Numbered from the stretch's first letter, positions 41,056-45,538 are shown. The stretch: 64,000 nucleotides of DNA from Pyrococcus horikoshii OT3 (GCF_000011105.1 NC_000961.1:1288662-1352661), one strand, 5' to 3'. The notes: a model not told the origin generated them from the letters alone. Numbers and translations are program-made.

Positions 41056-41131
41056 GCCGCCGTAGCTTAGCTGGTGGAGCGCCGGACTGTTAATCCGGCG
41101 GTCCCCGGTTCGAATCCGGGCGGCGGCGCCA
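41056..41131 (+). tRNA. tRNA-Asn (GTT)
   Basis: The acceptor stem GCCGCCG pairs with CGGCGGC, followed by G and an encoded CCA. The anticodon stem CCGGA/TCCGG encloses the loop CTGTTAA with GTT. The T arm CCCGG-TTCGAAT-CCGGG is perfect. No intron. Confidence 0.96.
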
Positions 41132-41140
41132 AAGAGGAAT

Positions 41141-41218
41141 GGGCCCGTAGCTCAGCCTGGTCAGAGCGCGCGGCTCATAACCGCGTGGTCCGGGGTTCAA
41201 ATCCCCGCGGGCCCACCA
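41141..41218 (+). tRNA. tRNA with CAT anticodon, probably tRNA-Ile2 (agmatidine-modified)
   Basis: GGGCCCG pairs with CGGGCCC; A and CCA are encoded. The anticodon stem CGCGG/CCGCG encloses CTCATAA. It lacks the A1-U72 pair and GGG/CCC anticodon stem of archaeal initiators. The elongator tRNA-Met is the intron-containing gene at 31262. It resembles the known Archaeoglobus tRNA-Ile2 (same acceptor stem, same loop). I infer that C34 is converted to agmatidine by TiaS, so that it reads AUA. Confidence 0.9.
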
Positions 41219-41221
41219 GAA

Positions 41222-42049
41222 TCATCTTCTCGAAAGTGCTATTCCCAGAAGAATTAAGGCTAAGCCCACAATTGTTGAACCTAGTATCTTCTCTCCCACT
41301 ACTATAGAAATGAAGAGCAGAGATAACACAGGAGTAAGATATATGAGAGATGCAACTTTCCCAGCTTCTTCGCTTTCTAGGGCCTTCAGCCATAAAAGAA
41401 AAGTTAACCCCATCTCAAAAGTTCCTACATATATAGCTCCAAGAACTCCATAGGGATCAAATTTTATTCCCTCAATAACTCCAAGGATGGAGATATAAAG
41501 AAAGCCAAAGATGAAGTTCCACATCATTTTAACTTCAGCTTTCCTGGGATCCCTAAGGTTAAGTATCCAATATATAGCCCATATTATTGCACTACACAAA
41601 GCTAATAGATCCCCCATGGGATTTGCGAAATGCAGAGAAGATAGGTTTCCCCTAGTCCCAACAACCAAAGCTCCTAAAAACCCGATAATAACTCCGAGAA
41701 AATCTCTCTCGCTTAACCTCTGTCCAAGGAAAGCTGATGAGAAAATAACGAGGATTATGGGCCATGTATAATTTAGAGCTTGAGCTTCTTGAGCTGGTAA
41801 AATGGAATAAGCGCTAAAAAGGACTAAATAGTAAAGGAAGGGATTTATGAAACCAAAGAAAACCGAGTTCAGATTCGCTTTAATCGAGAAGGTTTTAATG
41901 TCTTTTAAGTTTGCCAATAGAAATATAACCGTCGATGTAAGGGATGAGTAGAACAGCATACTTATTGTGTCAAGTCTTGAGAGGGTCAACTTAAATGCCG
42001 AAGCAACTGTTGACCATAGAAGCACCGCGAGAATAGCATATTTATTCAT
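41222..42049 (-). CDS. EamA/DMT-superfamily transporter
   Basis: 275-residue membrane protein with about ten hydrophobic segments in two EamA repeats. Repeat 1 begins with WSTVASAFKLTLSRLD and repeat 2 begins near PMGDLLALCSAIIWAIYWI. The substrate is unknown; family members export amino acids, nucleotides or metabolites. ATG 42049 is preferred because the 23 extra N-terminal residues of the longest frame are charged and non-conserved in type and would overlap the ABC ATPase gene. It follows the exporter cluster by 34 bp. Confidence 0.85.
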   Translation of the reverse strand: MNKYAILAVLLWSTVASAFKLTLSRLDTISMLFYSSLTSTVIFLLANLKDIKTFSIKANLNSVFFGFINPFLYYLVLFSAYSILPAQEAQALNYTWPIILVIFSSAFLGQRLSERDFLGVIIGFLGALVVGTRGNLSSLHFANPMGDLLALCSAIIWAIYWILNLRDPRKAEVKMMWNFIFGFLYISILGVIEGIKFDPYGVLGAIYVGTFEMGLTFLLWLKALESEEAGKVASLIYLTPVLSLLFISIVVGEKILGSTIVGLALILLGIALSRR

Positions 42050-42083
42050 GGGTTTAACTTTAACCCTCTCCTTAAGAATTTTA

Positions 42084-42752
42084 CTAAATCCCAAGCTCTC
42101 TGAGGAACTCAATTCCATCTTCTTTTTTCCCTGCGAAAGTCACTTCACCCCCAACGAGAACAATAATGTTCTCTACTAAATCGTATATCGGTTTCCACAT
42201 ATGAGATACTATTATCATATTAACTCCAACTTCAGCTCTCTCCCTGATAACCTTAGAGACCTCAGAAATTCCAAACATATCGAGACCTGAGAAAGGCTCG
42301 TCCAGAATTAGGACCTCATTTTCTCCCAATAAGGCCAGAAGTATGCTTAAGCGTTTCCTCATTCCAGCTGAGTATTCTACTATCGGTCTTTTTAACGCCG
42401 ATACGTCCGGAAATAGCCTTTTTATAAGTTCATCCTTAACTTTAACCCCTTTAATGTCTGAAAGTATTTTAATTAAGTCCATCCCTCTCCTATACTTCGG
42501 CAAGGATGGAGGATCTATACTAACCCCTATAACACGCTTAACTTTTGGATTATCCCAGGGATCTTCCCCAAGAAGAATTACCCTCCCCCTACTTGGTCTC
42601 CAGAAACCTACAAGCAGTTTTATCAGACTCGATTTTCCACTACCGTTGGGGCCTACTATGAGGGTTACTCCTTCCCTTATTTTCAGTGAAACATTTCTTA
42701 ATACCTCTACCTTTCCTATTTTCTTATGCACATCATCAAATTGGCCAATCAT
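42084..42752 (-). CDS. ABC transporter ATP-binding protein of the secreted-protein cluster
   Basis: 222-residue ABC ATPase with Walker A (VGPNGSGKSS), signature (YSAGMRKRLS), Walker B (EVLILDEPFSG) and the H-loop (MIIVSHM). It resembles the NatA/CcmA-type partners of ABC-2 permeases. ATG 42752 follows GGAGGGAG and overlaps the stop of the gene before it by 4 bp. It is the last gene of a five-gene overlapping cluster. Confidence 0.9.
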   Translation of the reverse strand: MIGQFDDVHKKIGKVEVLRNVSLKIREGVTLIVGPNGSGKSSLIKLLVGFWRPSRGRVILLGEDPWDNPKVKRVIGVSIDPPSLPKYRRGMDLIKILSDIKGVKVKDELIKRLFPDVSALKRPIVEYSAGMRKRLSILLALLGENEVLILDEPFSGLDMFGISEVSKVIRERAEVGVNMIIVSHMWKPIYDLVENIIVLVGGEVTFAGKKEDGIEFLRELGI

Positions 42753-43186
42753 TCTCCCTCCCTCCAAAGACTAAGTGAAAGTAAGAGGATGACAAAGGAT
42801 AACGTCAGAAAATGAATCCTCCAGTTGCTCCTTGGGAATCCAACGTCAATGACTCTTATAGTCGCGCTTCCAGAGTAAGAGCCGTTAACTATTATCCCAT
42901 AATGACCAGGGTGAGGAAGCTCTACCCTAATGACCTCATTCTTAAGCTTGCCTTCTTGAAGAACTTCAAAGTTTTCCAGGTCGACTATGGCATAGCTCCC
43001 ATTACCGTAACCAACGAACGAGATATCAACTAAGGCCGAAGTTGGAGAATAGAACCCAGCAACCTTCATGCTCCCAAGGGGTATGAGAGGATACTTCACA
43101 TCATCACTATTAACCGTTAACTGAAGAAAGAAAGACTCTGCAATGACCAATGTAACTACCATTAAAATTAATCTAAAGACCTTCAC
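42749..43186 (-). CDS. Uncharacterised protein with signal anchor and C-terminal membrane helix
   Basis: 145 residues: an N-terminal hydrophobic segment (ILMVVTLVIAESFFLQL), an extracellular beta-rich stretch of about 90 residues (SMKVAGFYSPTSALVDISFVGYGNGSYAIVDLENF...) and a C-terminal helix (FLTLSFVILLLSLSLW). Not recognised. It lies between the permease and the ATPase and overlaps each by 4 bp, so it is probably an accessory part of the exporter on the outer face of the membrane. Confidence 0.75.
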   Translation of the reverse strand: MKVFRLILMVVTLVIAESFFLQLTVNSDDVKYPLIPLGSMKVAGFYSPTSALVDISFVGYGNGSYAIVDLENFEVLQEGKLKNEVIRVELPHPGHYGIIVNGSYSGSATIRVIDVGFPRSNWRIHFLTLSFVILLLSLSLWREGE

Positions 43187-43881
43187 CTTACATCCCTCCT
43201 GACAAAGAGCCAGATTGAAGTTGGTAAAACAACTATCGAGATCATCAAGTACGGTAGTAGAGCTTTTACATAGTTACCCACTAAGACTTCTTGCACAGTT
43301 ATCGTGGGGTTTAAGAATTTTAGGTTTGAAAGCAAGAAAATCAGGAAAAATGAAAGGATACCCACAGTTGGGGCATTGGGAATTAGAAGAGAAGACAGCG
43401 TTGATATGCTTACAATGTATAATAGCAAAGATGCGTAAAATGCTAAGATTATTGGGAGGAACTTAAGGACGACTTTAATGCTATAAGATGAGGAGAAGTG
43501 TAGGAGAAATATTAAAACATGCGTAACTGAAATGACGAGAAGGGAAGAAAGGTAAACACTCATAATTTTAGCGAGGATTATACCCCTCATTGAAATTGGA
43601 AGGGAATATATAAAGTATGCACTTCCTTCATCCCTTTCTCCCCTTAAAGTTAGGGCAATGAGAAAAGAAGCTCCAAGGATTATCACTACGTAAGCGTTAT
43701 AAGAGAACATCGTGAAGAGGGGATAATTTAGCATTTGCCTTGGTGCACTCATCAACATGAAGAAGGTCATCCTTATAAGGCTCATCTTCATTATGAACGC
43801 CAGAATTGCCGAAGTCAAAATAAGCATGTAACCCTTTATTGGATCTTCACTTTCCCATACGACGAGCTTTAATCCTTTCAT
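43183..43881 (-). CDS. ABC-2-type permease
   Basis: 232-residue protein with six membrane segments arranged as in ABC-2 exporters; an N-terminal cytoplasmic start (VVWESEDPIKGYMLILTSAIL) and the DEGSAYFIYSLPISMRGIILAKIM block typical of the family (cf. NosY/CcmB-like). Pairing with the ATPase at 42084 gives a minimal exporter or membrane-maintenance complex. It overlaps the upstream gene by 35 bp. Confidence 0.85.
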   Translation of the reverse strand: MKGLKLVVWESEDPIKGYMLILTSAILAFIMKMSLIRMTFFMLMSAPRQMLNYPLFTMFSYNAYVVIILGASFLIALTLRGERDEGSAYFIYSLPISMRGIILAKIMSVYLSSLLVISVTHVLIFLLHFSSSYSIKVVLKFLPIILAFYASLLLYIVSISTLSSLLIPNAPTVGILSFFLIFLLSNLKFLNPTITVQEVLVGNYVKALLPYLMISIVVLPTSIWLFVRRDVR

Positions 43882-44944
43882 AAGCCACCACCAGAAAAAC
43901 GCTTAAGGATAAGATAAGTATGAGAAGCGAATCGATTGGTATTCCAACATTTTCAAGTTTATCCTTCTTGAAATAGAAGGCATTTGTATCTTCGAGAACC
44001 ATGCCAAAGCCATAGATATCCTTGCTTTTTGTTACCGGTTCCTTAGTCTTTTTAAAGTGTTCTTTGTCTGAAAATGCTACCTTTTCAAATCCAAATAATT
44101 TCCATACTGGGGACACTATCATGTATCCCTCTATTAGGATTCCAGTAGCTGGATCATAGAGGGCAAAGTTAGAAGCATTCTTGTAAAAGTTCGTTGTTAC
44201 CAGGATTATAGGAGGTTTAAATTCTCTAAATCTCGCATGAACCGTTGCATTTAGTTCCCTGACATCTTTTATATGCCATTCTTCCATGACTACTTTCCCT
44301 TTTACGTTCAAGTCAAGCAAAAATAGGGTATTCATCCCAATTCTCTTCCCCTTGTAGAGCACGGAGTTGTCTTTAAGGGAGACGTTGAAAGTGATAGATT
44401 TAGTCATTTTTGGGATTTTCCTTAATAGTAAAAAGTTTTCTACTGCCTCCTTTTCCTTCTTGACGTATATCCCGTACATATAGTCTTTACTTCTGATACT
44501 TACTACTACAGCTTTTTCATCCTCGCATATCCTAATCATCTCATTTTTAGAAGTTCCAATACTACAGGAGCCACTTTTTGTGAGATTTAATCTTGAATAT
44601 TTCTTGATTAACTCCATGGCCTTCTTAAGACCCTCTTTGGGAGATAGAATCCTTTGATAGCTCATTGTAAGGTTATAGGCTTCTAATGATGCATTTACCG
44701 TTATATACTCTCTAGAAACCTCTATTATCCTCCAAGTAAACACTCCATATTCTCCAGTATATATAGTTCCATTGGGAAGCTCAAGAACTACTGAGTGTTC
44801 TCCTTTGGCGGTATATTTAAAGTAAACACCTTGCCTGATCCAGTAGGGCTTTGATGCTCCCACGTTACCAAATGCTGATGTGAGAATAATGAAAATAAAG
44901 AGGAATTCAATGACTCCTACCTTCAATCCAATATATCTCGGCAT
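43847..44944 (-). CDS. Uncharacterised membrane-anchored surface protein
   Basis: 365 residues: N-terminal signal segment (GVIEFLFIFIILTSAFGNVGA), an extracellular domain of about 300 residues rich in beta strands, and a C-terminal helix (SLLILILSLSVFLVVAYERIKARR) with a positive cytoplasmic end. No family recognised. Two cysteines (SGSCSIG...RICEDE) may form a disulfide. ATG 44944 is chosen because the longer GTG frame adds only four residues inside the upstream gene. It overlaps that gene by 38 bp and the permease gene by 35 bp. Confidence 0.75.
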   Translation of the reverse strand: MPRYIGLKVGVIEFLFIFIILTSAFGNVGASKPYWIRQGVYFKYTAKGEHSVVLELPNGTIYTGEYGVFTWRIIEVSREYITVNASLEAYNLTMSYQRILSPKEGLKKAMELIKKYSRLNLTKSGSCSIGTSKNEMIRICEDEKAVVVSIRSKDYMYGIYVKKEKEAVENFLLLRKIPKMTKSITFNVSLKDNSVLYKGKRIGMNTLFLLDLNVKGKVVMEEWHIKDVRELNATVHARFREFKPPIILVTTNFYKNASNFALYDPATGILIEGYMIVSPVWKLFGFEKVAFSDKEHFKKTKEPVTKSKDIYGFGMVLEDTNAFYFKKDKLENVGIPIDSLLILILSLSVFLVVAYERIKARRMGK

Positions 44945-45299
44945 ACAGTTCACCACACGTCGTTTCAGCTTGAATCCAGGCTCTTAGATAAGCAGTAGTT
45001 CCCGGGGTTCCAGTCGTGTAAACGAGGTAACAATTAGGATAAGCTATCGCCCATTTCTCGATATCGTAGAGGAGAGGAGGATATAATTGACTTGCTTTTC
45101 CACTGATATATGCATAAGCTGAATCGACCCATGGATTAAAATCTCCGCCAATCTTATCAGTGTCTGTTACCACAGGATCTCTTGGAATATTTACGGTGTC
45201 TATTTTTTCTTTATTTTGTTGAGATTCATTGGCCAAGGCAATGTTTGCTACTGCTAAAATCAAAATGCTAAGAGCAATTAACAAGTGCTTTTTATTCAT
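44907..45299 (-). CDS. Small secreted protein heading the exporter cluster
   Basis: 130-residue precursor with a clear signal peptide (MNKKHLLIALSILILAVANIALA) and a mature part of about 107 residues with two cysteines (PNCYLVY and ETTCGEL), many aromatic residues and no recognised domain. ATG 45299 follows GGGGGGGGCTA; the longer frame would start inside that site. A TATA (GTTATATAC, about 45344-45352) fits a short leader. The first gene of five overlapping genes, it may be the exported product or an extracellular component of the system. Confidence 0.75.
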   Translation of the reverse strand: MNKKHLLIALSILILAVANIALANESQQNKEKIDTVNIPRDPVVTDTDKIGGDFNPWVDSAYAYISGKASQLYPPLLYDIEKWAIAYPNCYLVYTTGTPGTTAYLRAWIQAETTCGELYAEIYWIEGRSH

Positions 45300-45538
45300 T
45301 AGCCCCCCCCAACAAATTGTCAATACTATATTTAGTTGAATTAGTATATAACATTTTTGATTTTATCATGAATTAGAAAATTTTAAAAACTTTATTAATT
45401 ATTTTAGTAATGATTACTAAGACCTTGAAAACATAAAACATACTTTACAATCAATATACAAAAACTGAACCATTACATGTTTATAAAAAGCTAAAACTAA
45501 CGAGGGATTACATCCAAAAGGAGTATAAAATTAGATGG
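45300..45538. other. AT-rich intergenic region upstream of the exporter cluster
   Basis: 239 bp without an ORF of note and much richer in A+T than its surroundings. It holds the minus-strand TATA of the secreted-protein gene near 45348 and the 8-C run (45303-45310) that forms its Shine-Dalgarno. No repeat or RNA structure was seen in the rest. Confidence 0.5.

Follow-up and report, generated by a model that had tools for sequence, protein, structure and literature searches.

Lactococcin 972 acts on lipid II, a target that is to our knowledge absent from archaea. Operons of the lactococcin 972 type, such as pneumococcal scbABC, encode a small, beta-rich product secreted by the Sec route, followed by membrane-protein and ABC genes, and natural strains without a functional bacteriocin gene are found (PMC11796350). 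In protection against lantibiotics, the LanFEG transporter is encoded together with an extra outer-surface protein, LanI (for example, NisFEG with NisI), and a small secreted product is encoded beside them. Polymorphic toxin-immunity systems join a constant N-terminal part of a secreted protein to exchangeable C-terminal parts that are co-inherited with a neighbouring partner gene, and partner genes are also found alone (PMC3482391). In archaeal dark-matter islands, operons in which an arCOG00194 ATPase is accompanied by a permease that has diverged and by a putative binding protein were read as drug resistance (PMC4158269), and Thermococcales carry the VARTIG loci, hypervariable recombining surface proteins for which conflict or self/non-self hypotheses have been put forward (PMC8416519). 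Here, we describe a Thermococcales operon that shares these features with the lactococcin 972, lantibiotic, polymorphic-toxin and VARTIG systems; that its product is beta-rich is a model prediction, and the exchangeable, co-inherited C-terminal part is shown for subtype II of its module only.

We analysed a stretch of 64,000 nucleotides from Pyrococcus horikoshii OT3 (the window), whose genome is a single contig of 1,738,505 bp. Five ORFs, here called S, B, P, T and A, lie on the minus strand at 42084-45299 and overlap by 38 bp (S/B), 35 bp (B/P), 4 bp (P/T) and 4 bp (T/A) (Table 1). This agrees with a sequence-only reading of the same DNA, which had proposed five overlapping genes in one direction starting with a secreted protein of about 107 mature residues, the S ORF with its signal peptide. 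Because the gene order and each of the five genes are also kept in other genomes, the arrangement is not a product of chance. Two descriptions were amended: B does have the proposed C-terminal anchor, but its N-terminal signal had been left out, and the outer domain noted in T is present but sits between two transmembrane segments. The 239 bp preceding the cluster are as AT-rich as had been remarked, with an AT content equalled by just 84 of 63,761 same-size windows in the 64 kb.

Table 1 Features of the operon and its upstream region in the window (TM, transmembrane segment).
Feature	Position	Strand	Description
S	44907..45299	-	130 aa, signal peptide and ~107 mature residues, two Cys; putative effector/ligand, family S1
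B	43847..44944	-	365 aa; N-terminal signal peptide, beta-rich ectodomain and C-terminal TM anchor; putative immunity protein or receptor for the cognate S
P	43183..43881	-	232-aa ABC-2 type permease
T	42749..43186	-	145 aa, GTG start; N- and C-terminal TM around outer domain; putative exporter accessory subunit
A	42084..42752	-	222-aa ABC ATPase
AT-rich upstream region	45300..45538	-	239 bp, 75.7% AT; presumed promoter region, putative function
G8 tract	45303..45310	-	Shine-Dalgarno position of S; candidate slipped-strand phase-variation site
17-bp perfect palindrome	45404..45420		TTAGTAATGATTACTAA; in AT-rich upstream region; possible operator

Only P and A match known families, and their nearest relatives are lantibiotic-immunity (LanFE) subunits. 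A matches Pfam ABC_tran (3.1e-19), and its top NCBIfam model is the lantibiotic-protection ATPase galliderm_ABC (5.9e-35), where its 121 bits do not reach the cut-off of 309.75. The matches of P are weak, one to the MutE/EpiE lantibiotic-immunity permeases (1.4e-4; 21.3 bits versus a cut-off of 145.2) and one, below cut-off, to Pfam ABC2_membrane. S, B and T gave no usable match in Pfam, NCBIfam, PHROGs or PADLOC, in line with the earlier remark that no family was recognised for three of the proteins. No toxin domain was recognisable in S in these four collections, no Pfam family matched S1 at E≤1, and S, B and T showed no Ig match. PDB sequence searches with the three proteins returned nothing usable; short matches of the S and T profiles to designed proteins were judged to be chance. 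AlphaFold2 modelled S as a six-strand beta protein (pLDDT 82, from a shallow alignment and with two of five models poor) and B, with confidence, as a beta-rich ectodomain with a C-terminal helix (pLDDT 90.6, pTM 0.79). Fold searches against the PDB gave no significant match for S among the matches listed and none for B, for which weak fatty-acid-binding-like matches (E about 0.03) were set aside. The earlier suggestion of an undescribed system stands up well, given three proteins that have no usable family match; operons of this general type had been partly noticed before (PMC4158269).

The operon belongs to a Thermococcales module that is widespread, patchily distributed and quick to change. 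The B profile matched 62 of 115 genomes of the phylum, and 61 of these were among the 94 Thermococcales genomes searched; such a comparison of presence had been proposed as a check. B has many paralogues in Thermococcus-like genomes and no match among 72,556 plasmids. A scan of genome contigs gave only three Thermococcales loci. The profile of the window's S family, S1, matched 16 genomes, with S1 intact in 12. The recurrent plan starts with a small secreted protein, followed by one to five B genes, in some cases by D, a C-anchored PEGA-domain protein, and then by P, T and A. T is a conserved family whose divergence tracks that of P and A (r 0.96-0.99), and P is conserved beside T and A. D, of 530-580 residues, is found in many subtype II modules (L110 4258-5871, L105 2642-4366 and similar), some of them with multiple copies that alternate with B genes. 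Close to the G022 module of subtype I lies a series of repeated short ORFs in which the motif SVVTELCGK recurs (L116 92-2438); they look like a CRISPR array read in frame.

Several S families occupy the same place: S1, S2 (pattern SCW..WDHDxD..W..EWVWAGV.G...C.G) with its relatives, and further unrelated-looking small secreted proteins. S2 and S3 representatives matched no Pfam family at E≤0.5, one chance DUF match aside. A profile comparison of S1 with S2 reached a probability of 52% in an alignment consisting mostly of signal peptide and N-terminal part, and homology of the two is not claimed. A further small secreted family (MKKLVAVLFGLLVV...GWPYI; L151 6355-8446 and L108 5373-5732) occurs in the order S-B, S-B, P, T, A, with a conserved first and a variable second half, as in S2. 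Across two S families, S lies immediately before B in 44 of 45 full-length cases; the sole exception is G023, where B is split in two pieces. Extra B genes without an S of their own also occur. This near-constant adjacency, and the presence of other S families at the same place, argue against ordinary multidrug or stress efflux with a binding protein and an incidental S, which is how such operons were read in 2014 (PMC4158269). An ABC-2 pair next to a surface protein would suit efflux, and among the models that A matches is that of the DrrA drug-resistance ATPase, but the co-variation of S with B described below is unexpected for the efflux of small molecules. We consider this explanation very unlikely.

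We next considered the fate of S in subtype I, to which the window belongs. Besides the window's own, 25 subtype I modules were compared, and B, P, T and A were intact in all of them except one that is cut by a contig end. S1 was intact in 11, broken in three (G017, G035 and G026), absent from ten and not scoreable in G058. G023 is among the genomes in which B-P-T-A of this subtype stands without an S. With the window added and G058 left out, this amounts to 12 intact and 13 broken or deleted genes in 25 scoreable modules. The ten absences show at least three different deletion scars, and the ribosome-binding site and start codon of S are left before B. Since B-P-T-A persists where S is gone, S is dispensable for the ABC part, a point in favour of resistance or immunity and against a dedicated exporter. 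The sequence-only reading had offered both peptide export and immunity. That S and the ABC genes share one operon would be natural for an exporter of S. However, S bears its own Sec-type signal peptide and the remaining genes outlive it; the export explanation was rejected on these grounds, and we hold it to be highly improbable. The immunity cluster fared better, with A and P nearest to lantibiotic-protection subunits and S lost repeatedly while B-P-T-A is kept.

Gain and loss of the entire module can be followed at one site in Pyrococcus. In the window, the operon lies between an EamA gene (41222-42118) and an L24e gene (45539 on). The gap between these two genes is 54-118 bp in six Pyrococcus genomes, about 3.4-3.5 kb, with the module, in the window's genome and G006, and 2.8 kb in G007, where all that is kept of the module is a fragment of A (67% identical to the window's A over 72 residues). 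These empty, occupied and decayed states of one site indicate that the module was gained and lost at a fixed position. At the G007 site, a 711-aa unannotated protein is encoded beside the decayed ATPase fragment (L178 1435-3570). Genes for tRNA-Asn and tRNA-Met lie at 41056-41218, just past the EamA gene, and there was no integrase among the ORFs listed around the island.

The upstream region of S contains the sole run of eight or more G in the genome, which has 15 other runs of exactly seven. In many relatives, including some that have lost S by deletion, this position holds 7-10 G, and at least seven G occur within 25 nt upstream of 9 of 15 S1 starts, compared to 1 of 460 background ORFs. 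The variation in tract length among relatives, with one genome per species compared, suggests that S may be subject to slipped-strand phase variation; a simpler reading of the tract is an unusually G-rich ribosome-binding site. The palindrome in the same region has no second perfect copy in the genome. It is not conserved upstream of the S genes of relatives and was rejected as a shared operator.

To assess how S and B vary together, we compared 13 S2-B pairs of subtype II, several of them from one genome (three from G013, two from G080). Mean identity was 0.83 for the mature N-terminal half of S2, 0.49 for its C-terminal half and 0.47 for the adjacent B, with P, T and A at 0.83-0.87. The identity of the C-terminal half closely followed that of the adjacent B (r 0.90, Mantel p 2e-4), also with P held constant (r 0.91), and was not correlated with P (0.07) or A (-0.03). 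The N-terminal half showed the opposite behaviour, with r 0.03 (p 0.36) for the adjacent B and 0.72 for P. Within the same locus, the correlation with the C-terminal half was 0.82 for the adjacent B versus 0.16 for a non-adjacent B. When one pair per near-identical cluster was kept, it was still 0.78 (p 2e-4), and it stayed near 0.8 along almost the entire B and was gone for P, T and A. Part of this co-variation stems from the fact that adjacent cassettes are physically linked.

An exchange can be seen between G013 and G071. Divergence between the two is 8.5% over S2 codons 1-66 and 7-12% for the 3' end of B and for D, P, T and A, and upstream of S2 their sequences are only about 50% alike. 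Between these parts, nucleotides 240-1252 from the S2 start form a 1,012-bp block with a single mismatch, consisting of the C-terminal half of S2 and the B ectodomain. By this comparison, the two have evidently been exchanged between species as one cassette. A constant chassis (N-terminal half of S, P, T, A and D) with an exchangeable cassette (C-terminal half of S plus B) would be expected of polymorphic toxin-immunity or of ligand-receptor pairs. In subtype I, S1 does not evolve faster than B, so hypervariability is established in subtype II only. Because B, P, T and A are homologous and gene order is alike in the two subtypes, the evidence can be carried over, and we infer that the window's subtype works in the same manner.

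Ligand-receptor pairs would account just as well for co-variation and cassette exchange. The module could thus serve kin recognition or signalling, with S as a secreted ligand, B as a polymorphic receptor and P-T-A transducing or resetting the signal, all without killing; the lack of a recognisable toxin domain in S would suit such a role. Yet A and P resemble immunity exporters, the mapped modules showed neither a regulator nor a signalling domain, and retention of B-P-T-A after loss of S is less expected of a private signal, which makes this explanation rather unlikely. Alternatively, S and B might form a variable surface complex that escapes viruses or other surface-binding agents and is assembled or maintained by P-T-A. 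The hypervariability and exchange of surface proteins, together with an S that is perhaps phase-variable, would be in keeping with this idea, but S is lost in half of the subtype I modules with all else intact and the transporter is nearest to immunity exporters, and we regard it as improbable. A surface-maintenance system, also raised by the sequence-only reading, is conceivable but leaves the co-varying and exchanged S-B cassettes unexplained.

Instead, we slightly favour a conflict island with S as a bacteriocin-like effector, B as the matching immunity protein or receptor on the surface and P-T-A as a LanFEG-like exporter. S would leave by the Sec route, fold as a small beta-rich protein and act on related cells at their surface. 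B, on its anchor at the outer face of the producer, would recognise the variable face of its cognate S. P-T-A, as an ABC-2 exporter with an accessory subunit, would use ATP to clear B-bound or membrane-inserted S, on the model of LanFEG with LanI against lantibiotics, and cells without S would keep B-P-T-A as resistance. The toxicity of S, immunity by B and the direction of transport are what we infer from these comparisons. The bacteriocin-immunity reading is supported by the likeness of A and P to lantibiotic-protection ABC subunits, by the position of S before B and its loss from otherwise complete modules, by the co-variation and exchanged block of subtype II, by extra B genes that have no S of their own, and by the states of the Pyrococcus site. 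Counting against it are the lack of likeness of S to any known toxin or fold, the rate of S1 in the window's own subtype, which is no higher than that of B, the share of physical linkage in the co-variation, and the fact that a signalling or surface-complex role would also give co-variation. More tentatively, the module may be an undescribed Thermococcales conflict or recognition system in which different S families are built on a shared B and ABC chassis, C-half/ectodomain cassettes are swapped and the subtype I effector is phase-variable through its poly-G ribosome-binding site. We regard this fuller picture as possible, if on balance doubtful; if true, control of S by a poly-G tract would place simple-repeat phase variation in an archaeon, which is unusual.

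How archaea distinguish kin from competitors is an open question, and we know of few archaeal antagonism systems outside the haloarchaea and Sulfolobales. The module is a specific candidate in an order whose genetics are well developed, and it can be tested in a genetically tractable relative. It names a secreted protein, predicts the cognate partner and predicts resistant strains that have kept B-P-T-A and lost S. It also offers a functional hypothesis for B, a large unannotated surface-protein family present in almost two-thirds of the Thermococcales genomes searched.

Compared with the systems introduced above, the module probably overlaps with the arCOG00194 ABC operons (PMC4158269, Fig. 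4b), which were compared by their text description; in that text, a small secreted gene, S-B pairing and exchange go unmentioned. Identity with the arCOG10027 clusters was rejected, as those loci carry a large peptidase protein (PMC4158269) and none was seen in the module. The VARTIG loci are centred on a large Ig-domain protein and their description mentions no ABC genes (PMC8416519). Identity with them was rejected on the latter ground and on the lack of an Ig match in S, B and T, and the hallmark of these loci, a large upstream protein with multiple Ig domains, was not present in the mapped modules.

With LanFEG and LanI, the module has in common that A is nearest to the LanF model and P weakly resembles LanE (MutE/EpiE). 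It differs in that A falls well below the LanF cut-off, one permease gene takes the place of the LanE/LanG pair, B is a C-anchored protein of 365 aa whereas LanI is a lipoprotein, and there are no lanthionine-modification genes or lantibiotic-type precursor. As in lactococcin 972, a Sec-type signal peptide is combined with an operon containing ABC genes; unlike it, S has no Pfam match at E≤1 and no PDB fold match among those listed, and the four downstream genes share no families except the ATPase. In contrast to polymorphic toxins, S is small (about 100 mature residues) and has no recognisable toxin domain, and its partner B is extracellular, anchored and tied to an ABC transporter. While not a member of these families by sequence, the module appears, on the best-supported comparison, to combine the workings of lantibiotic and lactococcin 972 operons with the logic of polymorphic toxins.
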